The translations under genes and the position numbers were made by a program. This document shows, one piece after another, positions 4,146 through 41,652 of a stretch of 43,130 nt of DNA. The stretch covers positions 1-43,130 of IMG/VR virus record IMGVR_UViG_3300027506_000005. One strand, given 5' to 3'. The stretch comes from a virus. The first letter of the stretch is position 1, and each line of letters opens with the position of its first letter. Below the pieces are notes generated by a model. That model worked only from the letters and a program-made list of their open reading frames with translations. It was not told the DNA's origin and searched no databases.

Positions 4146-4943
4146 TTATGACAATCCGCTATCGAAAGTCAAATCGATATCTGTAGAGAATCCAAAGTCG
4201 CTATCTGGTAAACCGATAACTCCGCTTGGGTTTGGTGTAACTGTTATTGTTTCTATTTTAATATCGCTATCTGCTAGACCTTGATCCATCATGAATACAT
4301 CTGCCTTTGAAGTGCGAATAACTCCACCTGTGTTGATTCCGCCATAGAATGAAAGTTTCATCGTAAAATCTAATGTGTAGATAATAGTTCTACGAGATGC
4401 TAGATCTCCATCGAAATCATCAGAAAATGAAGTCCCCCCTAAAATTACAGGGATATCTTCTTTGAAGTCTGGATACTCACTCGGAAAAGGTTTAATGGTC
4501 AGAGTGTACTGTGGATTAAACGTAGGAAGAATCTGCTCAACAAGTTGTAAAGCATCATCTTGATTCTTAGCAATAATATTTAATTGAAATGAGATATCAT
4601 AGGGAACAGGTGAATAAAATTTCTGCCTATCATTATCTGTTAATCCTAGAGTCTTAAAATTACTGACTTTAGTGAGTTGCCTTGTATTATCATACGCGAT
4701 ACTCGTCATTTCAAAAGACATACGAGGAAGTTTCAAAGCAACCTTAGAGTCGTTTAAAAGATCTGGATTAGTCCTAATTCTTTCTAGGTACTTCGCTCTT
4801 GGACCATATGCTAATGGAACCTTCATCTGATTCAGTACAGAACCATCTTTAGCAAGTCTCACAACATACAGGTCATTGAACAGTCTACCGAATATAGAAA
4901 CTGCTTTTCTTATTTTTTGATGATAGAAATATGTACCGAACAT
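4146..4943 (-). CDS. 15: Tail sheath stabilizer/tail terminator (gp15)
   Basis: gp15 caps the finished tail and forms the docking surface for the head neck. The N-terminus MFGTYFYHQKIRKAV, then GRLFNDLYVVRL, matches the T4 gp15 opening (MFG.YFY...). Later segments VPLAYGPRAKYL, QLVEQILPTFNPQYTLTI and SRRTIIYTLDFTM correspond to VPITYASKEH, QIVEQILPYFQPHFN and SRRRIEWSLTFEV of T4. The 265-residue length is close to T4 (272). The start overlaps the gp14 stop as TAATG, so translation is coupled to gp14. The C-terminus contains DS-rich stretches like other virion proteins here. Confidence 0.95.
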   Translation of the reverse strand: MFGTYFYHQKIRKAVSIFGRLFNDLYVVRLAKDGSVLNQMKVPLAYGPRAKYLERIRTNPDLLNDSKVALKLPRMSFEMTSIAYDNTRQLTKVSNFKTLGLTDNDRQKFYSPVPYDISFQLNIIAKNQDDALQLVEQILPTFNPQYTLTIKPFPSEYPDFKEDIPVILGGTSFSDDFDGDLASRRTIIYTLDFTMKLSFYGGINTGGVIRTSKADVFMMDQGLADSDIKIETITVTPNPSGVIGLPDSDFGFSTDIDLTFDSGLS

Positions 4944-6104: not shown

Positions 6105-6863
6105 TTATCCTAAGAAGAAGTCAGGTGGCATTTCGTTTTCTAACCTGATCCGCTCCCTCAGTTGCGTTATTTCATTAGTAGCATCATCAAATATCTGACG
6201 ACCGTTAAAAGTAACTCCTCCTGGCAACTGTACACCTTCGAATTTCATAAGGTTTGATCCCCACTGCAACTTAATCAGCGCAGTAGCATATTCTTTCAAC
6301 CACATATCATTATATACGGAAGTGTGTGTATCTGGATCGACTATGGAATAAATTTCAGCGATAATATAATCACCTGCTTTTATATCGTCTGCTTTGAATT
6401 CACCGAAGATATGAAGTCTGTCCTGATGCCGTGACCATTGAACTTGTGGTGTGCCATTCAACTTCATATCTAACATAGATAGGTATTGTTGCATCTGCTC
6501 GTAATATGCTAGATCTCCCGCAAAGTTCTGCAGGTCAGCAATATCATTAAGCATCATTTGATATTTGATATCGAAGAAGTTTCCTTGTGATCCGTTAAAT
6601 GAACTGGATACAGGAAACATTTTAGTAACGGTCATCACGTTACTAGAGATAGGAATATATTCGTTAGTCACGTCTTCTGACGTTACTTGGTGCTTTAAGT
6701 ATGTGCGGACGGTAGCATCAGAATGATACTCTTGATAATATTCTAATGCTTCGTCAATACGATCTTCAACCTGATCATCGTCAACGTTGATCTCGATTAC
6801 TGGGTCACCTAGTCTTCTTTTACAATAATCAATAAGATCTTGTCTGGATGATGGAACTGCCAT
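6105..6863 (-). CDS. 13: Neck protein gp13
   Basis: gp13 acts with gp14 to close the filled head and provide the tail docking site. The N-terminus (RQDLIDYCKRRLGDPVIEINV, then QVEDRIDEALEYYQEYH) is the conserved gp13 signature. The end, IRLENEMPPDFFLG, is the usual gp13 C-terminus. It has 252 residues against 309 in T4. GGAG lies nine bases before the start, and an exact TATAAATA late promoter lies 35 bases upstream. It is therefore likely the first gene of a 13-14-15-x-16-17 transcript. Confidence 0.95.
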   Translation of the reverse strand: MAVPSSRQDLIDYCKRRLGDPVIEINVDDDQVEDRIDEALEYYQEYHSDATVRTYLKHQVTSEDVTNEYIPISSNVMTVTKMFPVSSSFNGSQGNFFDIKYQMMLNDIADLQNFAGDLAYYEQMQQYLSMLDMKLNGTPQVQWSRHQDRLHIFGEFKADDIKAGDYIIAEIYSIVDPDTHTSVYNDMWLKEYATALIKLQWGSNLMKFEGVQLPGGVTFNGRQIFDDATNEITQLRERIRLENEMPPDFFLG

Positions 6864-18550: not shown

Positions 18551-18901
18551 TTATGTCACCGATGGACTAACTCTAATTTTTCCTTCAAGGATTCTCTCAA
18601 CCACTGTCGCTCCGTTAGAGTCAACAAAAGAGATCTCCGCATCATAAACATAGTTGCCGACTTTTAGAGTGTCTGTTTGCAAGTTTGTTAAGGAAAGAGT
18701 TACTATACCATCGGTTTGGGGCACATTAATTGCCGCAGAAAAGGCGAGTGTATCGGAATCCGTGCTATTATAGTTCCGCTTCATTTTAGCAGCGGCACTG
18801 TAGTTATTAAGATCTTTGGGATTTCCTAGATGATCAATTAGGTCTAGTTGTATTGCTACATCCGACCCTTTGTCGATCGTAAATTTTTCGTATTCTGCCA
18901 T
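18551..18901 (-). CDS. Baseplate upper protein-like (BppU_N-type) beta protein
   Basis: A 116-residue protein whose pattern (KGSDVAIQLDLIDHLGNPKD, then NYSAAAKMKRNY, GIVTLSLTNLQTDTL, GNYVYDAEISFVD and VVERILEGKIRVSPSVT) matches the beta-sandwich domain found at the start of phage baseplate upper and fibre-attachment proteins. The closing ...EG.I.VSPSVT is typical. It is likely a collar or adaptor on which fibres mount. It is the first gene after a TATAAATA late promoter and leads the fibre operon 18901 to 6917. The assignment rests on pattern recognition only. Confidence 0.72.
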   Translation of the reverse strand: MAEYEKFTIDKGSDVAIQLDLIDHLGNPKDLNNYSAAAKMKRNYNSTDSDTLAFSAAINVPQTDGIVTLSLTNLQTDTLKVGNYVYDAEISFVDSNGATVVERILEGKIRVSPSVT

Positions 18902-18965: not shown

Positions 18966-19514
18966 TTATAAACCGATCAACATGAAACGATTATATTTTT
19001 CGAGAGGAAGGGTGTGCTCTTCTAAGACTTTCATATCAATTTTATTTGCAAAATCTGACGAATTTACTTTACAATTGATGTGATCCGTGATATAATAGTA
19101 GTCATTGCTTTGTAGAACAACGACACTATCTTTTCTTTTTTTGGATATGAACCCATTTATAACATCATCTGTAATATGCTCGCATGAAGTGCATATAATA
19201 ATATCATAAGGAGTAGGATCAAAATCTTCTATAGTTGAAGTTTGATATGTAACATTTGAAAAGAGTTTGACTTCTTTACACATAGGATCCATGTCAAACG
19301 ATACGGCATTACCAATCATATGCGCTGCTAATCCGTGCCAACCTGCTGCTACGCAGACCTTTGGTTTTTCCTTATACATATCTATGTATGGTTGGAGTTG
19401 ATTGACCAACCATAGTTTATTTAACACCTGATTGCTATTGACAGAGTTGGCGATTGACCTTGCTGTTTCAATATTATCACATGACTGGATTTTATCTATT
19501 GCGATTTGTAGCAT
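18966..19514 (-). CDS. SAM-dependent methyltransferase-like protein
   Basis: A 182-residue protein with a class I methyltransferase-like Rossmann pattern. Motif I-like KVCVAAGWHGLAAHMI spans about residues 52-67 (with GWHG replacing the usual GxGxG). An acidic strand end FDMDP at 73-77 could bind the cofactor ribose. Residues about 102-112 read YDIIICTSCEH, resembling the 'DxIxxxxxxEH' motif of this fold. The N-terminal 45 residues are helical. The substrate is unknown; the next-door glycosyltransferases suggest a sugar or surface modification. Its ATG overlaps the divergent glycosyltransferase ATG by two bases, and a TATAAATA sits only ten bases upstream. No good Shine-Dalgarno sequence is visible, so the true start is somewhat uncertain. 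Confidence 0.72.
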   Translation of the reverse strand: MLQIAIDKIQSCDNIETARSIANSVNSNQVLNKLWLVNQLQPYIDMYKEKPKVCVAAGWHGLAAHMIGNAVSFDMDPMCKEVKLFSNVTYQTSTIEDFDPTPYDIIICTSCEHITDDVINGFISKKRKDSVVVLQSNDYYYITDHINCKVNSSDFANKIDMKVLEEHTLPLEKYNRFMLIGL

Positions 19515-20421
19515 GACAAAAGTTATTTATAGTCTTTATATAGACATACCGAAAGATGAACTGGATCCACAACCAGCATACCATGGCGACACTATCTCAA
19601 AAACTTTGAGGACAAAGGAAAGGATGTCGGACTATTATGTTTGGTTGAGGAAAAGGCAAGAGGAGTATGCCGAAAGCATAGGTGTAGAATATAAACTCTT
19701 TCAATACGATAATCAATACTTAGAGTTCAAAGAAACCTTTGCAGATAAACCCTATATTACAACATACAATATAATAAATTTTTATAAAATCCATTTGATG
19801 TATGAACTTGCCAAAACATATGACGAGATACTCTATCTAGACTTTGATGTAGTACCCCTTAAAAATGAATGTTTCTTTGAGCGTTGGAAATTAAAACAAA
19901 ATGGAATGGCGATACTTTCAAACAGGAAGTATATAAACATTTCGCTTCATAAGATGATGCTAGATAGAGAGTTTCATGAAGAGTTCGGAGCGAACCCTAC
20001 ATATACATCAAACCGTTCACCGACTGCAAAATACTGGAACTGTAGGGCACTTCTTACCGAAAACGATATGTCAGGTGCTAATGATGTATACAATACTGGT
20101 ATCGTAGGAATAACGAAAGATCAATTAAAACAGTTGAACTACTTTGAAAACTTCGATGAACTATTACTAGAGATGAAAGGTTTAAAAGAAGATCCGTTCA
20201 GTATGTACCCACCGCATATCACTGACTTGTTCGGATATGATAACGAAACGATATGGAGTTTTAAGGCGAGGATGAATAATGTTACTGCTCAATTACTTGA
20301 TTCAGAGTGGCATCAATTTATGGATAAAATTAGTTTTGTTTCAAAAAAGACTAAATTAGTTCATGTCATCAATAAAGACTTTGCATATGTGAAAGACTGG
20401 TATGAAAAGAATAATATTTAG
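19513..20421 (+). CDS. DXD glycosyltransferase, first gene of the plus-strand island
   Basis: A predicted nucleotide-sugar glycosyltransferase of the GT-A fold. The ORF is open from 19432, but ATG at 19513 (MTKVIYSLYIDIP) begins with the expected first beta strand and avoids 82 bases of overlap with the divergent gene, giving 302 residues. The strand-plus-acidic motif YDEILYLDFDVVP places DFD at 110-112, the probable metal/UDP-sugar site. VYNTGIVGI (residues 192-200) matches the NTG loop of GT8-like enzymes, and LVHVINKDF near the end resembles the terminal H..K element. No membrane segment is seen, so it is cytosolic. It is a paralogue of the next gene. Donor and acceptor are unknown. Confidence 0.85.
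   Translation: MTKVIYSLYIDIPKDELDPQPAYHGDTISKTLRTKERMSDYYVWLRKRQEEYAESIGVEYKLFQYDNQYLEFKETFADKPYITTYNIINFYKIHLMYELAKTYDEILYLDFDVVPLKNECFFERWKLKQNGMAILSNRKYINISLHKMMLDREFHEEFGANPTYTSNRSPTAKYWNCRALLTENDMSGANDVYNTGIVGITKDQLKQLNYFENFDELLLEMKGLKEDPFSMYPPHITDLFGYDNETIWSFKARMNNVTAQLLDSEWHQFMDKISFVSKKTKLVHVINKDFAYVKDWYEKNNI
19524..19531 (-). promoter_or_regulatory. Late promoter core placed almost on the methyltransferase start
   Basis: An exact minus-strand TATAAATA lies within codons 4-7 of the plus-strand glycosyltransferase. T4 late transcripts begin about six bases past this core, which would leave only a few bases before the ATG at 19514. Either the message is nearly leaderless, the true start is further in, or the match is fortuitous. 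Confidence 0.5.
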
Positions 20422-21178
20422 CACATACACCAATACGGTAGATAATCACGCATCAGCGACTGATTTTAAAAAGTCTCAGTTCGAAAAGTTCAAAGGAGAC
20501 TTAGAAAGATCACAGAAAGAATATGCCGCACTATGCGGTGCTGATTATGATTTGTATGTGACCAAAGAAAGAGACTATGCGACTATCCAGTTTGATAAAC
20601 TGAGAAGAATGGAATACTTCGCTAATTTCTATGACGAGGTTGTTTATCTTGACTTTGACGTAGTACCGAGAACAAATAAAAATATGTTCAATCATTTTGA
20701 TTTACAGACGATATGCGCATATGGTATTGATAGAACTCCTCCTGTAGAAACTTTGAAGTGGGCATTAGAAAAGGATAAGTTCGATCTGATGAATATGTAT
20801 TCTAAGACCTGTGCTAAAAATGCGATGCTACTGTTGGATGAGATATACGGTTCTGCTGAAATAATAAATACTGGAGTTGTTGCTGCTAATAGCGAGGCAA
20901 TCAAGAACCTCAACTTTTCTGAAAACTTTGAGATGATGAATGGTAAGATATACGAGGCAATGGCAGACAATTTATATCCTGAAGAAATTAGTAGAAACTG
21001 GCACCCGAATAACGAAGTTTATATCTCTTATATGATTGAAAGGTTTAACATACCATATACGAATATTGGTTTACAATGGAATCTTCTTATAGACCGTGCT
21101 TGTCCGGAACCAACAGATGCTGCTTATATGTGGCATCATGTCAATAAAGAATTTGAGTTAAGTTATGGCGAAAAATAA
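20402..21178 (+). CDS. DXD glycosyltransferase, paralogue of the upstream gene
   Basis: A 258-residue GT-A type enzyme. It shares with its upstream neighbour the motif YDEVVYLDFDVVP (DFD at 84-86), the loop IINTGVVAAN (residues 154-163) and a late histidine element (MWHHVNKEF, near residue 243). The start overlaps the preceding gene by 20 bases, so the two are translationally coupled. Divergence in the central region (residues 100-150) suggests a different acceptor or donor. As two enzymes in series they could add successive sugars. A host cell-surface or virion target cannot be distinguished from the sequence. Confidence 0.85.
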   Translation: MKRIIFSTYTNTVDNHASATDFKKSQFEKFKGDLERSQKEYAALCGADYDLYVTKERDYATIQFDKLRRMEYFANFYDEVVYLDFDVVPRTNKNMFNHFDLQTICAYGIDRTPPVETLKWALEKDKFDLMNMYSKTCAKNAMLLLDEIYGSAEIINTGVVAANSEAIKNLNFSENFEMMNGKIYEAMADNLYPEEISRNWHPNNEVYISYMIERFNIPYTNIGLQWNLLIDRACPEPTDAAYMWHHVNKEFELSYGEK

Positions 21179-22385
21179 ACTGAAACGAATAAACGAGTTC
21201 ATGAAAAGGAATAAGTCTTTTTGCCCTGCTGCTTTTCACGAGATATACGCAGATAACTCAGGTAGATATAGACTATGTTGTCACGCCAGACCTATACCTG
21301 AATTCAAAAACATGGACTTCAAAGAGGAAAAGCATTTACCATTTGACTATTTTCTGTCTGATGCTATGGAAGAAGTAAGGCAAAAAATGTTAGAAGGGGA
21401 AACGATTCCTGCGTGTAAAACATGTTATTCTATTGAAAAGAAAAGTCCTGATGGTTCTTCCTATAGGCAAAAAATGTTTGAAAAACATGGTATGAACACT
21501 GAAGTAAATAGGGTCAATTTGAAAGTAAGGTTCTTTGGTAATTACTGCAACCTATCTTGCTACATGTGCCACCCATTCAACTCTACATCTAGAGGAAAAG
21601 AATTAAAAGAGATATTCCCGAAGTCAAATAAAGAAGATTATGATAACTTTATTGCTAAACAACTAGCGAATGATGAAGGCATTAATATAAAATACAGCGA
21701 TTGGGATAATTATTTTAATCACATTTTAGAAAACATAGATCTTATAAGAACTTTTCAAATGATGGGTGGTGAAACTCTACAACTTCCAAAGTACTGGGAG
21801 ATGCTAGATAGAATACCAAAAGATAAAGCAAAAAATATCAGAGTAAGTGCACAAACAAATCTTACTGAAATACGATATAAAAACTTTAGTGTGTTTGATA
21901 CTGCGGATAAGTTTGAGCAATTAACGCTGGGTGCATCCGTAGATCATTATGGTGATAAGTTAAGTTTCATGAGATATCCTATTGATCCTCAAGTGTTTGA
22001 AAATAATTTACAAGAGATAATAGATGGTGGGGTTAGATACTCTTTAGACTTAACTGTTTCTATTCTCAACATTGATGAACTAGATGAGATAAGAAAGTAT
22101 TACAAAGATAAATTCAGCATTCCTGAGCATATAAACTTGCACTTCAGCAACGTAGTAAGAGGTCCAGAATATCTCAGCATTAGAAATTTACCACAGAGAA
22201 TGAAGGATAGGTATCTAGAAAAGTACCACGACCTGACATATGTTGTTGCTGAATTAAGGGAAGAACCGAATCAACCAGTCGATAAGTTTATTGCGTACTG
22301 TGACAAACTTTGGTTACACAGAGGTGGGACTGATTGGAAAATATTATGGAAAGATTTTTTAGATGATTTACATCAGCAACGATAA
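21165..22385 (+). CDS. Twitch-type radical SAM protein
   Basis: A 406-residue radical SAM enzyme. The cluster-binding motif is C128-x3-C132-x2-C135 within GNYCNLSCYMCHPF, preceded by a hydrophobic strand (NLKVRFFGN). MMGGETL at about 199-205 gives the GGE motif that contacts SAM. The N-terminus holds a second Cys set (C20, C38, C39, C84, C87: FCPAAF, LCCHARP, CKTCY), as expected for a SPASM/twitch auxiliary iron-sulfur site placed before the barrel. Such proteins occur in marine phages and in surface-polysaccharide clusters. The substrate is unknown; peptide modification or sugar chemistry are both possible. It overlaps both neighbours (14 and 23 bases). Confidence 0.87.
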   Translation: MAKNKLKRINEFMKRNKSFCPAAFHEIYADNSGRYRLCCHARPIPEFKNMDFKEEKHLPFDYFLSDAMEEVRQKMLEGETIPACKTCYSIEKKSPDGSSYRQKMFEKHGMNTEVNRVNLKVRFFGNYCNLSCYMCHPFNSTSRGKELKEIFPKSNKEDYDNFIAKQLANDEGINIKYSDWDNYFNHILENIDLIRTFQMMGGETLQLPKYWEMLDRIPKDKAKNIRVSAQTNLTEIRYKNFSVFDTADKFEQLTLGASVDHYGDKLSFMRYPIDPQVFENNLQEIIDGGVRYSLDLTVSILNIDELDEIRKYYKDKFSIPEHINLHFSNVVRGPEYLSIRNLPQRMKDRYLEKYHDLTYVVAELREEPNQPVDKFIAYCDKLWLHRGGTDWKILWKDFLDDLHQQR

Positions 22386-22770
22386 AACGAAGATAGTATC
22401 TTTTACAATTAAAAAGATAATTACTTGCATAGACGAAGAGTCTGCTCGTACTATCGAACAAAACATGATGCAACTGGCGAATGCTAGTTTCGGTGATATC
22501 AAGATACCTGTATTCAGTTTCGGTAGGAATCAAACGAACGTATGGTATATTTCTGATTATGTAAAGGGAAAGATCCTAAAGAAAAAAGAAATGGGAGTCG
22601 TTTATGAAAACGTGGTAAAACGATCACCGCTTTTCACTTTGACTAATTTCAGTCATGAAAACTATATCAGGTGTCAAAACACAGGATTGATTTACTACAT
22701 TGATTTGAATGACTGTGGGGATATGGCGCACTTAGAAAGAGAAGATTTATTTGAGCGGTACAATGCTTAG
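22363..22770 (+). CDS. Small kinase-like protein, 135 residues
   Basis: I do not recognise a named family, but the pattern recalls a shrunken kinase of the aminoglycoside/choline/LPS kinase type. An N-terminal beta portion is followed by a hinge-like VWYISDYVKGKIL (residues 60-72). Then come TNFSHENYIRC (94-104), in the position of a catalytic loop, and LIYYIDLNDCGDM (109-121), in the position of a DFG-like metal site (IDxxDxG). The catalytic Asp of HxD is replaced (SHEN), and the helical C-lobe is absent. It could be a pseudokinase, a binding partner for a neighbouring enzyme, or an unrelated fold. It overlaps the radical SAM gene by 23 bases and the next gene by eight. Confidence 0.7.
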   Translation: MIYISNDKTKIVSFTIKKIITCIDEESARTIEQNMMQLANASFGDIKIPVFSFGRNQTNVWYISDYVKGKILKKKEMGVVYENVVKRSPLFTLTNFSHENYIRCQNTGLIYYIDLNDCGDMAHLEREDLFERYNA

Positions 22771-23356
22771 AGTTATCTGCGTAAATAATGGAGACAAATA
22801 CAATCAATGGTACACCGATAATCTTCGGCACATGGTTGATAAGTATTCGGGACTAGAGTATGATTCTTTTGAAGTTTGTACCGAAGAAATATATGGTGGC
22901 GTCTACGATAAACTGCAGATGTTTGATTTATTCCGTGATGGTCAGAATATTTACTTTGACCTAGACGTTCTTATCAAAGGTGACTGTAATAAGTTTTTAA
23001 AAGAAAAATTTACTGTATGTCACGCATGGTGGCGTAAAGCATGGCACACTCCACTGAACTCAAGCATCATATCATGGGAAGGTGATAAATCAAATATGTT
23101 TAAGTTTTGGGATGATGATTGGGCAAACATGATGCGTAAATATAACAGAGGCATAGACCAATACTTTTGGGAAGTCTACAATGTAGATACCTTCGCTAAT
23201 AAACGATATTGCTCTTATCAAACGGTTAAGGAAGAAGAAGACTATGACGTCTATTTCTTTAACCAAACTCACGAATACATGAAAACTACTGACTGGTGCC
23301 AGAAATACTTTCTACAATCTCAATCGCGACCTTTGTCGCCTCGACAATATTTGTAG
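22763..23356 (+). CDS. DXD glycosyltransferase-like protein, last gene of the island
   Basis: I choose ATG at 22763 (MLRVICVNNGDKYN) over an upstream TTG at 22751. This yields 197 residues and an ATGCTTAG overlap of eight bases with the preceding stop. A first strand LRVICVNNG, the helix CTEEIYGGVYDKLQMFDLF and then QNIYFDLDVLIKGD (DLD at 66-68) are typical of GT-A enzymes in the same broad group as the two upstream enzymes. An aromatic, Trp-rich middle (HAWWRKAWH, WDDDWANMM) may form the acceptor site. GIDQYFWEV resembles the DQ motif of related enzymes. Its 3' end overlaps the convergent gene by 71 bases. Confidence 0.8.
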   Translation: MLRVICVNNGDKYNQWYTDNLRHMVDKYSGLEYDSFEVCTEEIYGGVYDKLQMFDLFRDGQNIYFDLDVLIKGDCNKFLKEKFTVCHAWWRKAWHTPLNSSIISWEGDKSNMFKFWDDDWANMMRKYNRGIDQYFWEVYNVDTFANKRYCSYQTVKEEEDYDVYFFNQTHEYMKTTDWCQKYFLQSQSRPLSPRQYL

Positions 23357-23804
23357 ATCTACGAAGTTTAGTCTTGAGTTCTTTATCAGTGCAGTTTTTA
23401 ATTTGATCTGCCTCAAACAAAGAAATCTTATACATGAATAATTTATCTTTGTCTTTCTCATCATCAAAGTCAGCAAAGACGCAATGAGCAATCGCCTTGT
23501 AGATATCGGTATTGATGTTGTCGATATCGTAGATTAGACCTTCTTGTTTACCGATCTCAACAATCGCCTCTCTATAGATAGCATCTTGTTGGGCGATATG
23601 TTTAAAGGTTGATTCATGTAATTCGTCAATGGTAATTTGCGTCAGCAACCAATCATATACTTCATCACCGTCTTCGGCAGGGCAAAATTCTACACGCATT
23701 TCATCATCTACGTTTTGAGGATTATCGTTCCTAAAATATAATTCTACTTCTGTGCGTTCGTTGTTAGAAAAGTATGCCTTTTCAAAAGTATGACCATCTA
23801 TCAT
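23286..23804 (-). CDS. Unknown acidic protein, 172 residues
   Basis: No family recognised. The protein is strongly acidic (segments DDEMRVEFCPAEDGDEVYDW, CVFADFDDEKDKDK), helical in the second half, and lacks signal peptide or membrane segments. AAGGAC precedes the start, and the start lies three bases from the 332-residue gene stop, so it ends the operon running from the baseplate. Its last 23 codons are antisense to the island's terminal glycosyltransferase gene. The low-Gly, non-repeat composition differs from adjacent fibre proteins and suggests a non-virion role such as chaperone or assembly factor; this is only inference. Confidence 0.7.
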   Translation of the reverse strand: MIDGHTFEKAYFSNNERTEVELYFRNDNPQNVDDEMRVEFCPAEDGDEVYDWLLTQITIDELHESTFKHIAQQDAIYREAIVEIGKQEGLIYDIDNINTDIYKAIAHCVFADFDDEKDKDKLFMYKISLFEADQIKNCTDKELKTKLRRSTNIVEATKVAIEIVESISGTSQ

Positions 23805-26392: not shown

Positions 26393-26592
26393 TACAGTCT
26401 ATCCAGTATTTCTCTCATCATAGATTTGAGTTCACCCACTTCGTGTTTCAATTGATCTATTTCTTGTTTATCAGTTTTTCTTGCTCTTTTTACTCGCTGA
26501 GCATTTTTGATAGAAACATTATCGATATTCAAAATTGCATTATTATTCAAATCACGAATAAGGGTGTTGTGGTTTTCAACCTTCGCTTTCAT
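26392..26592 (-). CDS. Small coiled-coil protein, 66 residues
   Basis: A 66-residue basic-to-acidic protein. The C-terminal half (KQEIDQLKHEVGELKSMMRE) has clear heptad spacing of Leu, Val and Met and should form a coiled coil. The N-terminus contains Asn/Ile-rich turns (NNNAILNID). It is joined to both neighbours by TAATG overlaps, so it is translated with the giant baseplate protein and paralogue A. It may trimerise or act as a clamp for the adjacent spike proteins. It is short, but coupling on both sides argues it is a real gene. Confidence 0.75.
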   Translation of the reverse strand: MKAKVENHNTLIRDLNNNAILNIDNVSIKNAQRVKRARKTDKQEIDQLKHEVGELKSMMREILDRL

Positions 26593-29500
26593 TATACCGC
26601 CAATGCAATCACACGAAGGTCTTTGAATGATGGAACCAAAGCACTACTTGTAGACTTCATAACGATCTTAATAGTGAACTTATCAAATGGATCCACGAAA
26701 CCTTCTTTCCCGCCAATGAGATATGTGTAATCTCTAAACACCGCAGGATTCTCATCACTTTGAACATTTTCTTCAGACCCGATTTCAGTCCAGTTCATAT
26801 CGTCAAAGTTTGCATCTTCTGTAGCAACCTTGTAGTACAGATCAAAGTCTGCGACCGAAGGTTTGTTTGCAGAAAGAAGAATCTTTACTCCAACTGATGG
26901 TGACTCAAGGATAACAGTTTTTACAATATGCTTAGACATATGTGAACCACCGTTAGGGTCAGTTTCGTCAGCATATGATATTGGAGCATTTCTGTTAAGA
27001 TTAACGGTCACACCCACAGATCCTGGTGAATCTTGGAAGTCGATGTTATTGTGGAACATCCACATACCTGCTCGTTGAAGGTCAATTACAGGAGTAAGAT
27101 CACTATCTGCAGTTGTAAGATTCAACCTAATTGTCGCAGACTTAGCACCACTCATAGCATTCGTTTGACGCTCACTATTTGCTAGAAGTTTAGGTGTCGC
27201 GAAGTAGTTATCTTCATTTAACACCAATCGTGAATACCCGACTTCTTTAGTGTACTGAGTTTCGTTACCTGCCTGAGATTTTGCTTCAGTTAGTTTGGCA
27301 TCGATTGTTACGTCAGTCCGTCTAGGAACCAGAGTTTGGATCTTAGGAATCATGATTTCGTAACCGATATTCTGAGTCGCCTTTACAGTATCACCGCCAA
27401 AGATTAAAGCAGCAGTACAAGCATCACCAGCAGTGATTCTATAACTGTTTTCATCTACAGCAGTAATAGTTCTATTGCCGTTTATGCTCGCTCCTGTTTG
27501 ACCCTGACCAAAGTTTTCTCCATCAGTAAGACCACTAATTGTTACAGTATCCCCTACTATGAATCCATGATTTGGTTGAGATATAATAACGGTTGAAGCA
27601 TCTGATTCAGAAAGTATTGGATTTACAGGAAGTAGATCTAATGGAAGATCAATGTTTTCCAGCACCACTTCTCCGCTCGTATTAGGGAACTTCGCCTGAA
27701 TCAATTCAAACTTCATATCTTTATTTTGTGCAGGAGTCCATGTAGAACCGTTCTGCGATAAGAATAATGAACCAAGTGTAGGTTGTTTAGCAATCTTTCT
27801 TGCAGTTGAACCGATCTCAAACTTTTCAGTTTCAGCAACATATACAAGATAATCTACTGATTGAGCAAGAAGAACTACAGCGAACTCTGTTAGACCAGTT
27901 AGATATACTGGTTCATCAAACTCAAACTCAGTCGCTAAACTTGCATCATCCGAAATATTGATTCCTGATGGTTCAAGGAATTTAACTGCTCCAGGAACGG
28001 GAATGTTATCGGGAACACCAGCATCCATAGGACGGATCTGAAGTTGAGCAGGAATGTTAGCATCTTTCGTTTTAAAGAAAACTTTTACTTTCGTAATGAA
28101 CACGCCATTAGGTTTATTCACGAAGAATGATTGCGCCAACGGATCTGCTGGGTTAGGATCATCTGGCACCTGTTGTGGTGGTTGAATTCTTGAACGACCA
28201 GTTACGATAGATCTGATTGAAATCTGACGAGTTGCTCTTACTGTACGATCTACTGTTTCAAGAACACCGTTTGCGTCAAAGAATCCTTTAGAGAATGATG
28301 TAGAGAATTCTGTATTTCCGCCAGTCACATCCATAAGTTGGAATGCACGAGTTCCTGTTCTGAACCGAATAGCAGAAGTATTAGGAACGAAGAATGAACC
28401 TTCAATCTTACCAGCAGCAGTTGAAGTCAGTACTCTATCTGCTGCATTTGGCGCATCAGGGTGATTCGTTGCACGATTATGTTCGTTACCAACTGCAGTT
28501 GTACTAGAAGCATGGCGACTAAATGATACTGTTCCATCAACCCAATCAGCGACAGATACACCATCAAAGAAAGCATAGTGACGAGTATTAGGTTTTAAAC
28601 CTTGTACACGGAAGAACATTTTAATAGAACGCATGAACGGAATCAATGCAACATCAACAATCTTTTCGTCTATCACTTCGCGAATAGTTTGCTGAGATAC
28701 CACACGATTTACACGTGTTACATTATCATTGCCTTCTTGAGCAGTTCTCGCAGCACCTACATTAGATCCTACAGTTACGCCACCCCAGTTCCAATTCCAG
28801 TTACCAAACAATCTGTTAGACTGATTATCAAGACGAGTACCGCCACTGATAACTTTAGTATGGCGAACTTTAGTTTCTTTCCAATGATCAGAGGAAGGTG
28901 AAAGGTCGGTATAACCTTCGTTTGTGATAACTGCGAATGGGTTAATATTCTCAGTTCCACTTGCTAGGTCTTGATTGATATATGAAACATGATTATAGTT
29001 AAGATAAACATTATCACCCATCAGTCTAACGTTTGTAGACAGAGATGAATCATAAAGAAGTTTCATTTCTTCTTCTGAGAAAAGAGGTCTCATGATTTTA
29101 TTTTGTGGATCAATAGATGCTCTGTATTCTGAATTATTGATATCAGATGACTGATGATCTACAAAATTATCCACTAAGAAACCTGACTTGGTACGGTCTA
29201 GACCGCCAGAGTCAAGGACTGAAAAGTTCTTTAGATCAATTTCTAATAAACTCAGAGCAGTCATTTCTTCTAAAGTTTCAAGACGATCTTCCATTCGGGA
29301 GATGTCTTTCATTGTAAACCCTTTAGCATCGATACGTCTCATTGACATATCACTGTCGTTAATAGACCCAGGACCCATTTTAATTTGATAGAGTTCTAGT
29401 GAACCTCCTGGAGTAGAAGGAAACTGAGGTGTGAAACTAGAATTACCTTCTAAATAAGTTAAGACGCCATCGTTTGCAGCAATCAACTTATCGTGACGTG

Positions 29501-31673
29501 GTAGAAAATAAGTAACGTCAGCAGTCACCAAAGAAGTGTTTGATGGCAGAGCATTATACCTTGCAGTTCCACCACTGAAGTTAGCACCTGTGTCATCTTT
29601 CCGTGAACGGAAGTCAAAGATATCTTTTAGGTCATACACTTTACCAGTTCTGCTTGTGTATGATGGTATTTTGTTATATGGTGCAGGATAAGAAGTAGCA
29701 GCAAAGAAGTTGCCTGAACTACCGTGCGCATAATAATCAAATCTAGCAAAGATAGGTTTAGTCGGTGCGGTTGTATTACCGATAAGAACCAAACGTCCTG
29801 CGTCGTAGAAGTTATCTCTCTGACCATTATCAAGAACGAAACTACCTGATACGTCTAGACCATCTGAGTCAGTAATTCTAACCCTTGAAACATCTATGAT
29901 ATCTGCCTTACCTAATGCAAGGTATGGCGCACCAGTTGCTGGTGTTGTAAGAGTCGCTGTTACAGTTGCGTTTGTTATAGTTTTAGTTCTTGCAACAGCA
30001 TTGATTGATTTTTTGAAAATAATCTCTAGAGGAGCACTCGCTGGTGCACCAGAAATAGTAGCACCTGCTCCAGCACTGACGAGCGTGATTGTTGGATTAA
30101 TGATAGCACCTGTATCAGTTCTAGCAATAATCCAATCAGTAGTGTCAGAATATAGTTCACCGCCAGATAATGTAGGAAGAGCGGCATTACCAGAACCGTC
30201 TGCGGATCTAGAATCTCTTCTCACAACTACATATGAAGCGTTGGCGATTGCATTTATACGAGGATAACCGAAAGCATAAAGTAAATTAGTGTTTAATTTA
30301 TCTTTCAATACTGGTGCTGAGTTTTCAAGAATAGGGTTAGCATAGTTAGTAGCATCTTTGGCAAGCGACCGAACTAATCTGAAATCCTTTCCAGCATTCA
30401 TTTGAATATCCATCAAATAATAACGTAGATTCGCACCATCTTCTTCAATAGATTTAATTCTTGTTGTGCCGATAGTTGTACCAGTATTACGGTATCCAGT
30501 TTTTAAATTGTATTGTTCGAACTCGTCGATATTTGGAACACCAAGTGAACTATCACAAACAAGATAATTACCGATACCGACTGAAAGAACGTCGTTTACC
30601 ACTTGCTCGGTATCATCTGCTCTGTTTACGTTCACAGAAGAGAAACCAGTAAATTCGTTCCTATACCCATTTAGATATACTAGTCCAGGAGAAACTCTCA
30701 GGTTGTATAGGTTCGCTGAATCTGTAGGATGCTGTTCATAGTTAATTTTAAATTGCTTTTTAATAAAGTCGCCGTTGATTTCCTGAACACGTCTTGCATT
30801 AAAATCTGCAATTTTATTATATGAATTATCAGGAGTTACCTGCTCAATCACTTTACCCTTTTGAATCTTTGAATAGAATACAAAGATCTCATCTGAATCA
30901 ACTTCAGAAGCAAGAGCAAGTGTCATATCAATCCGTAGACGATCCGCTCCTGGAGCAGTCAAGTTTGGTTGCGCTCCCTGATTATCATATAGAGCAACGT
31001 TATCGTCTATTCCGAATATTTTTTGCTGAACTCTGAATCCGATATCAAGTGAAGGTGTGTCACTATATTTAGAAATAACTTTTGACTGGGCATCTGCTTG
31101 TACGAAATGACCTTGCGTAAAGAAGATACCAGTATTAACAGATGCTCTAGTTCCTCTTCCTAATGCTGGATTAACAGCAGTGTTGATAGTTTGTATTGTA
31201 AGAGTTTTAACTGAGTTAGTCAAGTTTTCCCCAGCAGTAAATCTTACAGGTGCCTCTGCGGATGCTGTTCCGCTTGATGTATCGGTGTATTGAACGAAAA
31301 GAGTAGCAGGATCACCATCTGCAGCAGGAAGAACTTCAACGATTTTTCCTATCACACTCGACGATGCACCAGTAATAACTGCGCCAAGCAAAGATGCTGT
31401 TGAAGCAGGAAGAGTATTTGTTGTTGTATCAAGTTTAACAAATTCATATTTATTGTTTACTGTTACACCACCACCTAATACAGCAGCACCTTCTTTAAAT
31501 ATATTCGTGCCGAATCTTTCGATTTCCTTTTGGATAATCGTCTGCATCTGTGTAAGTTCTCTTGCTTGTAGAACTTTACCACTGTTGAATAATATCCGAT
31601 GATAATGATCACTATCTTTGAAATCATCTTTGTATTTGGTTTGGAATAGCGTTTCCGTTACATTACTTGACAT
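26592..31673 (-). CDS. Giant baseplate structural protein (DUF4815-like), 1,693 residues
   Basis: The largest gene in the window. The first 60 residues (FQTKYKDDFKDSDHYHRILF, then GKVLQARELTQMQTIIQKEI and ERFGTNIFKEGAAVLGGG) match the DUF4815 pattern of large phage baseplate proteins. The middle has FDFRSRKDDTG and ARFDYYAHG. Around residues 1040-1250 there is a section with MRSIKMFFRVQGLKPNTRHY and DPLAQSFFVNKPNGVFITKV, a motif common in marine myophage peripheral baseplate proteins. The C-terminal 200 residues are a beta sandwich (VGVKILLSANKPSVADFDLY, FTIKIVMKS, LRVIALAV). It follows gp8, where T4 has gp9-gp12, so it may provide the outer baseplate that anchors fibres. AAGGGAT precedes the start. 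Confidence 0.87.
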   Translation of the reverse strand: MSSNVTETLFQTKYKDDFKDSDHYHRILFNSGKVLQARELTQMQTIIQKEIERFGTNIFKEGAAVLGGGVTVNNKYEFVKLDTTTNTLPASTASLLGAVITGASSSVIGKIVEVLPAADGDPATLFVQYTDTSSGTASAEAPVRFTAGENLTNSVKTLTIQTINTAVNPALGRGTRASVNTGIFFTQGHFVQADAQSKVISKYSDTPSLDIGFRVQQKIFGIDDNVALYDNQGAQPNLTAPGADRLRIDMTLALASEVDSDEIFVFYSKIQKGKVIEQVTPDNSYNKIADFNARRVQEINGDFIKKQFKINYEQHPTDSANLYNLRVSPGLVYLNGYRNEFTGFSSVNVNRADDTEQVVNDVLSVGIGNYLVCDSSLGVPNIDEFEQYNLKTGYRNTGTTIGTTRIKSIEEDGANLRYYLMDIQMNAGKDFRLVRSLAKDATNYANPILENSAPVLKDKLNTNLLYAFGYPRINAIANASYVVVRRDSRSADGSGNAALPTLSGGELYSDTTDWIIARTDTGAIINPTITLVSAGAGATISGAPASAPLEIIFKKSINAVARTKTITNATVTATLTTPATGAPYLALGKADIIDVSRVRITDSDGLDVSGSFVLDNGQRDNFYDAGRLVLIGNTTAPTKPIFARFDYYAHGSSGNFFAATSYPAPYNKIPSYTSRTGKVYDLKDIFDFRSRKDDTGANFSGGTARYNALPSNTSLVTADVTYFLPRHDKLIAANDGVLTYLEGNSSFTPQFPSTPGGSLELYQIKMGPGSINDSDMSMRRIDAKGFTMKDISRMEDRLETLEEMTALSLLEIDLKNFSVLDSGGLDRTKSGFLVDNFVDHQSSDINNSEYRASIDPQNKIMRPLFSEEEMKLLYDSSLSTNVRLMGDNVYLNYNHVSYINQDLASGTENINPFAVITNEGYTDLSPSSDHWKETKVRHTKVISGGTRLDNQSNRLFGNWNWNWGGVTVGSNVGAARTAQEGNDNVTRVNRVVSQQTIREVIDEKIVDVALIPFMRSIKMFFRVQGLKPNTRHYAFFDGVSVADWVDGTVSFSRHASSTTAVGNEHNRATNHPDAPNAADRVLTSTAAGKIEGSFFVPNTSAIRFRTGTRAFQLMDVTGGNTEFSTSFSKGFFDANGVLETVDRTVRATRQISIRSIVTGRSRIQPPQQVPDDPNPADPLAQSFFVNKPNGVFITKVKVFFKTKDANIPAQLQIRPMDAGVPDNIPVPGAVKFLEPSGINISDDASLATEFEFDEPVYLTGLTEFAVVLLAQSVDYLVYVAETEKFEIGSTARKIAKQPTLGSLFLSQNGSTWTPAQNKDMKFELIQAKFPNTSGEVVLENIDLPLDLLPVNPILSESDASTVIISQPNHGFIVGDTVTISGLTDGENFGQGQTGASINGNRTITAVDENSYRITAGDACTAALIFGGDTVKATQNIGYEIMIPKIQTLVPRRTDVTIDAKLTEAKSQAGNETQYTKEVGYSRLVLNEDNYFATPKLLANSERQTNAMSGAKSATIRLNLTTADSDLTPVIDLQRAGMWMFHNNIDFQDSPGSVGVTVNLNRNAPISYADETDPNGGSHMSKHIVKTVILESPSVGVKILLSANKPSVADFDLYYKVATEDANFDDMNWTEIGSEENVQSDENPAVFRDYTYLIGGKEGFVDPFDKFTIKIVMKSTSSALVPSFKDLRVIALAV

Positions 31674-37480: not shown

Positions 37481-39457
37481 TTATGCAAAGATTTCTACTA
37501 GTTCGCCTGTTGCTTGGTTATAATTATTGTATCTTGTTTCTAATTTATTTACATATTTTCCTTCGAAACCATTCAGTTCAGGTAGAACAACAATGATCTG
37601 AACATTCAAAGAACCATCAAAATTATAAGTATCATAATCCAATATCATCTTTTCATATTGTAGACTATCTTTCCACCACGCTGCTAGTTGGAAAGTTTGT
37701 TTTGTAGCAATTTTACCTTTACGATCTCGAAGTTCGTAAACAATAGCACGACCATATGTTCTATAATCGTTCACGCTACCAGCGGCAAGAATTTCATCTG
37801 AACCTTGTTTATAAATTCCTTCTGAAACGATAAGTCTAAACTCATCAAAGTCACCCTCATCTTCTACCACAGAACGTAGTATCTGAGCATGTAAGTAAAG
37901 ATATTTTGACATTTCAAATTTATCTTCTTCTAACATATGGTCTAGAGTGATAGAATCACCGTGCCCACCTAAGAACTTCGCTACTGTAATTCCTCTTGCA
38001 AGTTTTGTATTTTTTGTGATAGTCTTTTTCAGCAAGGGATTGTATATTGGATTAGGAACAGTTGTGATAGTATCATTTTGAACTGAACCTTTGAAACGTT
38101 TTGCCTCAGCACCCACTAATCTACCGAACACTTCTTTAGGGTTTGCGAAGCGAGGACTAGCATCATTGGATATAATAGATCCCAGTGAGATAGGAACAGC
38201 ATTAGAATATGACGAATGTAAAATACCTTCGGTCAAAGCACTACCTATAAAGGATTCATTCGCTTGTGTTGCTGCATTCCGTAGTTTGGATCTGACCTCC
38301 TGAGTAGTCAATGATCTATCAGAAACCCCTCCGTAATCAACAAGTCTATTGATAGAATTATAAATTACGTTGCCAACGTCAATAGCAACTTTGAATAAAC
38401 CATACTGACTATTGAACCAATCATTACGGATAATGCTATTTGTTGCTTGTACCGTATCTTTGTTTGTTGCCGTTTCAACAGATGTCGTATATCCGCCAGG
38501 AGATGCAGAACCTAGTCCTGCTGTTCCTGCTCTATTTGAATTAAGTGCTTCTTTCGCAGTTCCTTCTAGATCACCATGAAAAGTAGTAGCATGAATTGAA
38601 GTAGAGTTAACACGAGGAATATGTGCGGTGTGACCGTAATATACCATATTCTCACCGCCGATAGTTCCGCTGTCACCAATGAAAGTTAAGTTAGATGCAC
38701 CCATATTGATGTCGACACTAGTCGCGATATATTTGTTTTCAGCAGATATCTGATATACAGCGCCAACGATATCTTCTTTGTTAGTACCGATAGTTGTACT
38801 TTGGTTTTGTTTAATAATATTGTTTTGATCACCAGATATGAAGTTAGTTTCTGTGCCTGTTATAGTCTTAGAAAGGTTTCTATTTACGAACGTCTGGTGA
38901 TTCCCATTCACGTCTTGACGCAGACCACCTCTGATATCTTCTATCTTATCGCCACCAGCACTCACGTTTATATTGCCGCCAACGTCTAGATCGAAGTCGC
39001 CATCAACTTTCAGTTTTAGATTTCCGTGATAAACCAGTTCGCCATCACCTTCGATGATAACTTTTTCACCACCTGCTGCAACACGAACTATGTTATTAGT
39101 CGCGTTGATAATAACACTTCCGTCTGCCCTGAGTTCTATACCAGCACCCGTCTTATGCTTGAACAACATACGTTCACGTCCTGGAGTATCGTCTACTTCA
39201 GTCACATGACCAGATACGGTTCTTTTCACTTGATTCAAAGGAGCGGTAGAAGAAGGATAATCTTTTATTTCTAAATCTAAGTCTACATCACCGCCACCGA
39301 GTAAAAGATCGTTTTCTTCAATCCCTCTCGCTTCTAAATTTATGGAAGGAGCATTAGCATATTCACGTTTAGGGAACGCATTTTTAGGATCAGAGAACGG
39401 ATCGTCTCGTCTATTACTACCAAATATTGGCGGTTGACTTTGAAGTTTATCTACCAT
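37481..39457 (-). CDS. gp5 C-terminal-like needle protein with extra C-terminal domain
   Basis: A 658-residue protein. Residues about 75-120 (VKRTVSGHVTEVDDTPGRER, then KTGAGIELRADGSVIIN) match the start of the VgrG/gp5 needle domain. Residues 120-260 form repeats of short strands such as ELVYHGNLKLKVDGDFDLDV, DVNGNHQTFVNRNLSKTI and NIIKQNQSTTIG, as in the triple-stranded beta helix of gp5. The C-terminal 150 residues (about 500-658) have KYLYLHAQILRSV, DEFRLIVSEGIYKQ and DYRTYGRAIVYEL, faintly like an M15 peptidase fold without its metal ligands. The start overlaps the 731-residue gene stop as TAATG. It probably forms the membrane-piercing spike shaft. Confidence 0.82.
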   Translation of the reverse strand: MVDKLQSQPPIFGSNRRDDPFSDPKNAFPKREYANAPSINLEARGIEENDLLLGGGDVDLDLEIKDYPSSTAPLNQVKRTVSGHVTEVDDTPGRERMLFKHKTGAGIELRADGSVIINATNNIVRVAAGGEKVIIEGDGELVYHGNLKLKVDGDFDLDVGGNINVSAGGDKIEDIRGGLRQDVNGNHQTFVNRNLSKTITGTETNFISGDQNNIIKQNQSTTIGTNKEDIVGAVYQISAENKYIATSVDINMGASNLTFIGDSGTIGGENMVYYGHTAHIPRVNSTSIHATTFHGDLEGTAKEALNSNRAGTAGLGSASPGGYTTSVETATNKDTVQATNSIIRNDWFNSQYGLFKVAIDVGNVIYNSINRLVDYGGVSDRSLTTQEVRSKLRNAATQANESFIGSALTEGILHSSYSNAVPISLGSIISNDASPRFANPKEVFGRLVGAEAKRFKGSVQNDTITTVPNPIYNPLLKKTITKNTKLARGITVAKFLGGHGDSITLDHMLEEDKFEMSKYLYLHAQILRSVVEDEGDFDEFRLIVSEGIYKQGSDEILAAGSVNDYRTYGRAIVYELRDRKGKIATKQTFQLAAWWKDSLQYEKMILDYDTYNFDGSLNVQIIVVLPELNGFEGKYVNKLETRYNNYNQATGELVEIFA

Positions 39458-41652
39458 TATAAATCCTCCGGACTTGGTTCAGAAAATTCTGCGGAAAAAA
39501 TTGCATCACCGTTTGCTGGGTACTGTACTCGTCTTTGATCTTTTTCATAAAGAACCGTCCATCTTCCACGAACTTCATCATAGTAAACTTTGTTTGTGAA
39601 ACCGTCTTCGGTTTCGACTAATATTTCTTCATTTTTATTATTGATGACTTCGCTGTTCAAGTAATTATCAGAAATATCACCGTATGGATCTTCTGCGATA
39701 TCTTCTATCTCACGTTTCTTTGATAGATAGGCATCAACATCAAATCCTGGACCATTCACTTCAGATCCACCTACAAATTCACCAGTAGATTGTAAAATTA
39801 ATAAATCTTCTCCGATATAAATCCCGCCAGGACTATGCCTCATCATAACGTCTGCAATCATATCAAACGATTTCCATTGCTCAGCAGTTATGCTTTTTGA
39901 AGATAATCTATTATATTCTGCAAACGCATATTGACTAAATCGTGAGTAAGAACCTTCTTCGTTTCCAAGTAACCCTGCATCAAAGGTAACTATCACTGCT
40001 TCAAAGTTAGTGTTTTTTAATTTTGACTGACCAGTAAATCCACCTGCTAATAAAGCACCTTTAGCATTTTGTCTATTCGGCGAAATCTTTTGATTGATAG
40101 GTTGCACCCTTTGAACCGTACCATCTTTATTTATCCAATAATGACATTTCCAAAAATTATTTTTATCTTCAGCGAATTGACCTTCTTGTTCTTTTTGAAA
40201 TGCAGTCCACTTTGGATTATATTGATCTGGCGTTGCAAATTCACTTTCTTGCGTCAATGTCCAGTTTACAATTAGATTCTTAATAACCCTAGATGAAGAT
40301 TTAATTTCTAATTCTAATTCTTTTTTAGAATTTACTATTTCATAAGTAAGGTCGGCGAGAGTAATCGCTTCTTGCGTCTTACCAACTTCAAAGACTGGTG
40401 TAGTGGGTTCTTCTACTATGACTTTAGAACCTTTGTTTACTGTTTTTGCAAGTTGAGTATCACCAGTTTCCGTTACGATATTAGGAGCAGGAAGTTTAGT
40501 TACTGGATCAATTCCTCCTATAACACTTTCTTGTATTTTACCAAGTTCAGAAAACGAACCGACCCCAGCAACTGCTCCTGCTACAGATGCAAGAATATTA
40601 CCGAAGTCTACACCCAAAGACCCGAAAGGATTTCCTGCTGCGAATGCGTTCGCCCCATTAGAAAATGCTTCCACAGCACCTCCGATACTCGATGCGACAC
40701 TTTTAAATGGATTCTTACCGACTTTCGCTTGAAGTGAAGTCAATGGATTAGGAAGACCCCCTAGATCAGGAATGTTAGCACCTTGAGACCCTATAGGATT
40801 TCCTAGATCTCTAAACTGCGCAGTAGAAAACTCTTTCGCTTTCGCTGTTGCTTGTTGCGCTGCAGGTACAGCAGTTGCTACTTTAGAAATATCGCCATCA
40901 ACTTTAGTATTGAATTCAGTGATTTCTTCATTAGTTAAACCGATATCCCGCATTTTCTGCTGTAAAAATGGACTGTTCTTTACGTCTTGTGATTTATTCA
41001 CTACATCTTGAACATCATTGTTTTTTATATCATATTGCGCAGCGATTGCAGGATCTTCTAAAGTATTTTTAATTCCTTTTGGACTAGCAGAGGAAATAAC
41101 TTTATTGAGTTTGGTACTCGTTGAAGTGACTTGTCCTGTTAAGGTATCAACGTTTGTTTTAACCGAAGGTGTATTGGTAACTGTAACGTCAGGAACATTT
41201 GCAGTCATTTCTGATATCGCTGGATCAGGTTTATTGATCATTGCAGTTTTTGGTTTTGTTGACTCAGTAAGCGATTTAAATCCAGCATTCTCCTCGCCCA
41301 AAGTTTCTGAGTTCGGTGAAGTATTTAATGCTGCTTCTTCTGCTGCGAGAAGTTTATTAACTTTTTCGGCACGTGCTCTAGCAGCAGGTGCTGATGAACC
41401 CTTCGCCTTAGAGTCAAGAGTTTGACTTTCGATTTTTTTTGCTTTAGCATTAGTTTGTTCTAGACGAGTGTTTCTTACGAGATTTAAGTATCTCCGTGCT
41501 TTTGCTTCGATATCTTCGAGTTTTGCCAAGCGTTCAGGATCTACGCCAAAACGTTTATTTTGTTTCCTAAGAGAACTTCTTTCTCGCCTTAGTGCTGTGC
41601 GTTCTGCTCGACTTAAATAATCGGGATGATTTACATCAAGTGTATTGGGCAT
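39457..41652 (-). CDS. Baseplate hub-region protein with amidase-like domain
   Basis: A 731-residue protein between lysozyme and needle genes. Residues 1-115 are charged and helical with coiled-coil character (RAERTALRRERSSLRKQNKR). Residues 115-430 are a low-complexity Ala/Ser/Thr/Asn-rich linker with a Gly/Ala-rich hydrophobic stretch at about 345-365. Residues about 440-625 resemble an amidase_2/PGRP fold: VIKNLIVNWTLTQ takes the place of the (V/I)xxHHT strand, WKCHYWINKDGTVQRVQP matches YHYVIDRDGT..R, and NFEAVIVTFDAGLL matches the SIGIxL strand. The first zinc His is replaced by Asn. The C-terminus (EEILVETEDGFTNKVYYDEV) is beta-rich. It overlaps both neighbours as TAATG. Enzymatic activity is uncertain. 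Confidence 0.75.
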   Translation of the reverse strand: MPNTLDVNHPDYLSRAERTALRRERSSLRKQNKRFGVDPERLAKLEDIEAKARRYLNLVRNTRLEQTNAKAKKIESQTLDSKAKGSSAPAARARAEKVNKLLAAEEAALNTSPNSETLGEENAGFKSLTESTKPKTAMINKPDPAISEMTANVPDVTVTNTPSVKTNVDTLTGQVTSTSTKLNKVISSASPKGIKNTLEDPAIAAQYDIKNNDVQDVVNKSQDVKNSPFLQQKMRDIGLTNEEITEFNTKVDGDISKVATAVPAAQQATAKAKEFSTAQFRDLGNPIGSQGANIPDLGGLPNPLTSLQAKVGKNPFKSVASSIGGAVEAFSNGANAFAAGNPFGSLGVDFGNILASVAGAVAGVGSFSELGKIQESVIGGIDPVTKLPAPNIVTETGDTQLAKTVNKGSKVIVEEPTTPVFEVGKTQEAITLADLTYEIVNSKKELELEIKSSSRVIKNLIVNWTLTQESEFATPDQYNPKWTAFQKEQEGQFAEDKNNFWKCHYWINKDGTVQRVQPINQKISPNRQNAKGALLAGGFTGQSKLKNTNFEAVIVTFDAGLLGNEEGSYSRFSQYAFAEYNRLSSKSITAEQWKSFDMIADVMMRHSPGGIYIGEDLLILQSTGEFVGGSEVNGPGFDVDAYLSKKREIEDIAEDPYGDISDNYLNSEVINNKNEEILVETEDGFTNKVYYDEVRGRWTVLYEKDQRRVQYPANGDAIFSAEFSEPSPEDL

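Follow-up and report, generated by a model that had tools for sequence, protein, structure and literature searches.

An opposite-strand cassette of glycosyltransferase-like and radical SAM genes, apparently exchanged between phages, in the tail region of an uncultivated T4-like virus

We analysed 43,130 bases of an uncultivated virus record (hereafter the window, meaning this whole stretch). Its minus strand encodes homologues of tail sheath, terminase, neck, tail-fibre-like, VrlC, gp8, gp6, gp25 and hub proteins; the structural homologues include a sheath stabiliser (4146-4943), the neck protein Ad2 (6105-6863, minus) and VrlC (26592-31673, minus), a name that we took from the annotation of Mosig and HTVC008M. 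These homologues place the window in the late structural part of a T4-like marine myovirus genome. Every convincing gene in its 43,130 bases lies on the minus strand, apart from a cassette of five plus-strand genes, g1 to g5, at 19513-23356. The first-pass annotation had described such a run of overlapping genes within an otherwise minus-strand structural cluster, and we recovered it as described, with overlaps of 20 (g1/g2), 14 (g2/g3), 23 (g3/g4) and 8 bases (g4/g5).

On one side the cassette diverges from uMT (18966..19514, minus), a late-strand gene that reads as methyltransferase-like but has no Pfam match; on the other it converges on d172 (23286..23804, minus), a gene present at the equivalent place in most loci. 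The start codons of uMT and g1, both ATG, share 2 bases, and the ends of g5 and d172 share 71 bases; no spacer is left on either side of the cassette. We consider the five genes real because relatives number in the dozens for each of g1, g2, g3 and g5 and come to seven or more for g4. Beyond uMT, the tail-fibre-assembly-type gene u1084 (18551..18901, minus; phrog_1084, 5.7e-21; phrog_3304, 1.2e-13) bounds the far side of the slot. A weak terminator-like hairpin lies at the end of g5 (23333..23347, plus), although such sites are no commoner than in shuffled sequence, and an Rfam search gave no match.

Two of the genes encode GT8-like glycosyltransferases, g1 (19513..20421, plus, 302 aa; DFD and NTG motifs) and g2 (20402..21178, plus, 258 aa; DFD motif). 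Their scores against PF01501 straddle its curated cut-off of 24.3 bits, with g2 above (24.4) and g1 below (23.9); within the g1 family, 15 of 24 members match this profile at E<=0.01. The product of g5 (22763..23356, plus, from an ATG; an alternative TTG start is listed at 22751) carries a DLD motif, has no Pfam match and was assigned from its predicted fold. Its AF2 model (pTM 0.71, mean pLDDT 67) has a GT-A fold, with the PBCV-1 A64R capsid glycosyltransferase among the best Foldseek matches (2p6w; 2.6e-4, TM 0.55) and VIA-align Z-scores of ~10 to Skp1 galactosyltransferase, glycogenin and UGGT (GT8/GT24; rmsd 4-5 over 165-190 aligned residues). On this model, g5 is a third GT-A enzyme. Profile searches with g1, g4 and g5 against PDB sequences returned nothing significant. 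The three DXD motifs picked out in the first-pass annotation are all present, and each is invariant across its family (D110/D112 in g1, D84/D86 in g2 and D66/D68 in g5); the NTG of g1 is nearly so.

The third gene, g3 (21165..22385, plus, 406 aa), encodes an N-terminal-twitch radical SAM enzyme that scores 255.9 bits against NF033640 (N_Twi_rSAM), well above the curated cut-off of 170 bits. The CX3CX2C core and additional N-terminal cysteines that had been reported for it are there: the core is C128-x3-C132-x2-C135, and the extra cysteines are at 20, 38, 39, 84 and 87. Four of these form a twitch pattern (C20-x17-C38 and C84-x2-C87) that precedes the core, and this N-terminal region aligns with the BtrN twitch domain (E 3e-4), in which the C-x17-C and C-x2-C spacings are the same. 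Scanning viral contigs for close relatives with g3 alone, and likewise with g4 alone, yielded no true relative; L083, a candidate from the close-relative scan, was rejected as a chance match. Unlike these single-sequence scans, profile scans built from alignments recovered relatives of both genes. Those of g3 turn up as well in other phages where the neighbouring genes are quite unlike those here (L169-L171, L181, L191-L199), so this enzyme is not bound to the cassette slot.

The remaining gene, g4 (22363..22770, plus, 135 aa), had been called kinase-like. That description suits the family, about eight members of which align around a DxKPxN...VDFE motif (also read as DLKPEN...VDFE) and one of which, L078, matches the ABC1 kinase profile PF03109 weakly (4e-4, under its cut-off). 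It does not extend to activity in the window copy, whose loop reads TNFSHEN: Asn replaces the catalytic Asp, which is kept in L091, L093, L072 and L078, and an active kinase is therefore unlikely as judged from this residue. The AF2 model of g4 was unusable (pLDDT 44). We describe it as a kinase-like remnant, which may serve as a helper without catalytic activity or may be in decay. With the glycosyltransferases and the radical SAM enzyme in place, the earlier suggestion of a pathway modifying a glycan or a protein is well supported.

To compare the slot among phages we fetched contigs with g1, with VrlC and with g3, using degenerate peptide patterns that returned at most 80 loci each; the counts given here are not prevalences. 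In the contigs examined, the slot is edged by a phrog_1084 tail-fibre-assembly gene on one side and by d172-d332-VrlC on the other, and in most of them it is filled by an opposite-strand island. The smallest islands had two or three genes and the largest over a dozen, and gene order was largely colinear across loci apart from missing or additional parts. The first-pass annotation had proposed looking for the window's gene order at the equivalent place in related phages, and this check was passed: uMT, g1, g2, g3 and g5 recur in order in L157 and L159, and partial runs occur in L160 (g1-g2-g3-g5, on a contig that starts at the cassette) and L158 (g3-g4-g5). Among more distant phages, L104, L121 and L128 lack a reverse island, and L108, L126 and L134 have glycosyltransferases in the slot but encode them on the late strand. 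Among cultured relatives, HTVC008M carries oxygenase genes as a reverse island in broadly that region, and Melnitz has no reverse island at that place.

The relatives' islands contain further recognisable enzymes, namely a DegT aminotransferase, a carbamoyltransferase, nitroreductase-like proteins and several radical SAM proteins; SGNH-like and PP-loop proteins were assigned by motif reading, except for one weak QueC match. DegT, carbamoyltransferase, nitroreductase-like and QueC-like genes would fit a pathway unrelated to surfaces, with a glycosylated, soluble small molecule or a modified nucleic acid as the product of the cassette, and the twitch enzyme BtrN itself acts on an antibiotic precursor. 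We regard this as very unlikely, given that the cassettes contained no recognisable base-modifying enzyme, that the glycosyltransferases are GT-A/GT8-like and that the cassette sits among fibre and baseplate genes. Probably the cassette decorates either the host surface or the tail of the phage itself.

The islands also link the two chemistries directly. In relatives, a gene for a radical SAM core (~215 aa) often adjoins a free SPASM gene (~120 aa), and in L174 and L201 core and SPASM occur in one chain, which identifies the separate genes as halves of one enzyme. Elsewhere the SPASM half is found at the N-terminus of a fusion protein, joined to glycosyltransferase GT3 (L148, L167/L168, L172, L173) or to g5 (L075/L077), and these loci keep a radical SAM core gene close by in the same cassette. 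That one SPASM half is joined to two different glycosyltransferases argues, at the level of gene architecture, that radical SAM chemistry and glycosyl transfer share a substrate or a complex. We found no report of a SPASM-glycosyltransferase fusion in the literature searched, which lay mostly outside subscription journals. A stronger version, in which the two activities form one machine that equips virion proteins jointly with a glycan and with a side chain or sugar altered by radical chemistry, appears rather unlikely.

Comparison of trees revealed that the cassette and the phage backbone have different histories. In the VrlC tree the window clusters with L090, L091, L093, L035 and L060 (up to 77% identity), and grouping it with L157 is rejected (p 5e-7, with a large likelihood gap of 1080 units; the window/L157 pair was spotted before the tree test, and this p is not that of a blind hypothesis). 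In the g1 tree, L157 is the nearest row to the window (support 85, unstarred), and keeping the backbone clade together is rejected (p 1e-4). Phages with ~76% identical VrlC carry other cassettes. By these comparisons the cassette moves independently of the backbone, with its nearest relative (L157) in a distant phage. The swapped block seems to include uMT, which is 66% identical in L157; of the six window genes with the lowest GC content, five are uMT, g1, g2, g3 and g4. The fibre genes beside the cassette, on their identities, track the backbone: between L093 and the window, u509 and u1084 are 85% and 90% identical, whereas g1 is just 39% identical.

The surrounding genes carry a late-promoter signature that the cassette lacks. 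The T4-type late promoter motif TATAAATA occurs in exact form ten times in the window, always on the minus strand (4.9 copies expected over both strands), and seven of the ten copies sit 10-62 nt ahead of minus-strand starts; the plus strand is thus free of exact copies, as the first-pass annotation had stated. The copy for uMT (19524..19531, minus) lies within the coding sequence of g1, in L157 as in the window. Where uMT diverges from g1, 12 of 17 loci have the motif on the uMT strand at the junction, versus 0 of 47 where a methyltransferase-like gene is co-oriented with g1 (Fisher 2e-9, which is descriptive only, the loci being related). A published search for late promoters in pelagimyophages had failed (PMC7029224).

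Upstream of the cassette, inside uMT, lies a candidate sigma70 promoter, TTTACA-17(TG)-TATAAT (19068-19096, plus). It is the sole 11/12 sigma70-like site on the plus strand over 43 kb, and such a site with TG has a chance of about 0.004 per 500 nt. Identical hexamers lie upstream of the cassette in L159, and L148, L157 and L163 have no sigma70-like site at >=10/12 there. The TATTAT previously offered as the closest promoter element is present at 19472-19477, but we dropped it as the cassette promoter in favour of this better-matching site. From these features, the cassette may be expressed early.

Early expression would suit a cassette acting on the host, and the opposite strand, the missing late promoter and the sigma70-like site all fit a scenario in which host LPS or its O-chain is modified early in infection, altering receptors and shutting out competing phages (superinfection exclusion). 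GT8 enzymes are typical of LPS synthesis, the DegT aminotransferase and carbamoyltransferase genes of relatives are as found in surface-sugar synthesis, and cassette type is uncoupled from the adjacent fibre genes; an O-chain change is also the published proposal for this region (PMC7029224). The slot nevertheless sits between fibre and baseplate genes, some lineages keep its glycosyltransferases on the late strand, and no flippase, polymerase or ligase was recognised among the island proteins scanned. Relatives of g1 in the cell-genome collection amounted to four MAG contigs, themselves phage sequence with the phage flank genes, and none in a bacterial O-antigen cluster; we accordingly rejected g1 as a host-derived gene, and its matches do not point to recent acquisition of an LPS gene from a host. 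Modification of host LPS is plausible, but we hold it to be clearly less than an even bet.

We lean slightly, and short of an even chance, toward a virion acceptor, a tail-fibre or baseplate protein. The low g1 identity beside well-conserved fibre genes in L093 counts against it, being unexpected of a fibre-tailored glycan, as does the fact that BtrN-type twitch enzymes use a non-peptide substrate. In its favour are the slot, which in many phages keeps its place beside fibre and baseplate genes, and the late-strand glycosyltransferases of L108, L126 and L134. Peptides are frequent substrates of SPASM/twitch radical SAM enzymes (PMC11002830), a bias that also favours a virion protein.

For a virion acceptor, the pathway could run as follows. 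Host sigma70 RNA polymerase would transcribe the cassette ahead of the late genes; g3 would act on a side chain or sugar, g1, g2 and g5 would all add sugars to one common acceptor, and the divergent, late-transcribed, methyltransferase-like uMT would complete the modification. The acceptor would most likely be a tail-fibre or baseplate protein from the neighbouring genes, and the cassette would vary the outer surface of the virion. Sequence or predicted structure shows a compact, horizontally exchanged cassette that pairs three glycosyltransferase-like proteins with a twitch radical SAM enzyme and occupies a fixed slot without late promoters. The overall picture, in which this cassette modifies the virion by such a pathway, is one that we put forward tentatively, with a little under half of our confidence.

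This type of region is already published as the pelagimyophage host recognition cluster (HRC), and the window is a compact case with some new detail. The HRC of Zaragoza-Solas et al. 2020 (PMC7029224) is a large island without synteny, lying between gp14, a neck gene, and VrlC, that carries GT8 glycosyltransferases and radical SAM cassettes beside tail fibres. The window resembles it in having a variable island between VrlC and a neck gene, in a T4-like structural region with fibre genes, and in its GT8-like g1 and g2 and hypervariable content. Its island differs in being a compact run of five genes that includes a kinase-like remnant and an N-twitch radical SAM enzyme, and the passages of the HRC account considered here do not describe the strand inversion, fixed ends, block exchange or promoter pattern seen here. 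Moreover, the window's VrlC is just ~33% identical to that of cultured pelagimyophages, and its host may or may not be SAR11. The Pelagibacter phage Mosig EXVC030M (MT647606, 60990-71305) has an opposite-strand island at the equivalent place, with relatives of g1 (Mosig_00091, 42% identity) and g5 (40%). Its 13 genes include nitroreductase-like, aminotransferase, carbamoyltransferase and methyltransferase genes and several short radical SAM proteins, but neither g4 nor a one-chain N-twitch enzyme was found among them. Marine T4-like environmental viral genomes are rich in radical SAM genes, with 12 in one (PMC5332604), which that study treated as Fe-S metabolism and did not link to glycosyltransferases. 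Relative to the literature searched, the compact five-gene form, the exchange shown by trees, the junction promoter pattern and the SPASM-glycosyltransferase fusions in relatives are new.

T4-like phages are reported as a dominant fraction of marine viral communities (PMC7029224). For the island that some of them carry, our analysis adds a defined slot, a recurring gene order, exchange independent of the backbone, a surrounding late-promoter signature and a link between radical SAM enzymes and glycosyltransferases through fusion. Mosig is a cultured phage with a homologous island, and the target is hence open to direct testing. Were the two chemistries indeed one machine, the twitch enzyme and three glycosyltransferases of the window would be its compact, one-chain version, and this would amount to a new type of post-translational modification of virion proteins.

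The motif TATAAATA, which occurs on only the minus strand of the window (positions 1857, 6898, 11288, 13342, 18947, 19524, 25624, 34123, 37467 and 42239) and in the majority of cases lies shortly upstream of a gene start, is a T4-type late promoter motif. An earlier published search for late promoters in this phage group was unsuccessful (PMC7029224). Elsewhere in the window, two separate genes match phrog_430, a baseplate hub/lysozyme family, one at the family's start (41652-42617) and the other farther along it (37481-39457), with a 731-aa gene between them that has no PHROG match. Together, 37481-42617 is a split gp5-like hub.

Relatives of g4, the kinase-like remnant of the window's plus-strand cassette, retain the catalytic Asp in four loci (L091:21041-21523, L093:14806-15294, L072:4250-4786 and L078:2006-2500), in each of which the gene lies on the late strand and adjoins the fibre-assembly gene. 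The copies within a reverse cassette (window, L158 and L190) have lost this residue.

Some of the relatives' cassettes encode a glycosyltransferase with a SPASM domain fused at its N-terminus (L148:7797-8843, L167:11816-12907, L172:8924-9982, L173:11783-12910 and L075:5903-6832), two different glycosyltransferases being involved. Each of these cassettes also carries a radical SAM core gene without SPASM. L148, like L149, L150 and L151, comes from a metagenome-assembled genome (binned as Gammaproteobacteria, Flavobacteriaceae and Rhodobiaceae); all four carry the phage flank genes and the island, and are therefore phage contigs that had been binned with cells.

In the cultured pelagimyophage HTVC008M, a reverse-strand island adjoining the neck genes (L152:19403-22682, HTVC008M 56402-59681) holds 2OG/phytanoyl dioxygenases and a putative ferrochelatase in place of glycosyltransferases. 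In other phages (L191-L199), a relative of the radical SAM enzyme g3 (37-40%) is flanked by conserved 337-aa and 587-aa genes, a second setting for N-twitch radical SAM enzymes that differs markedly from the first.
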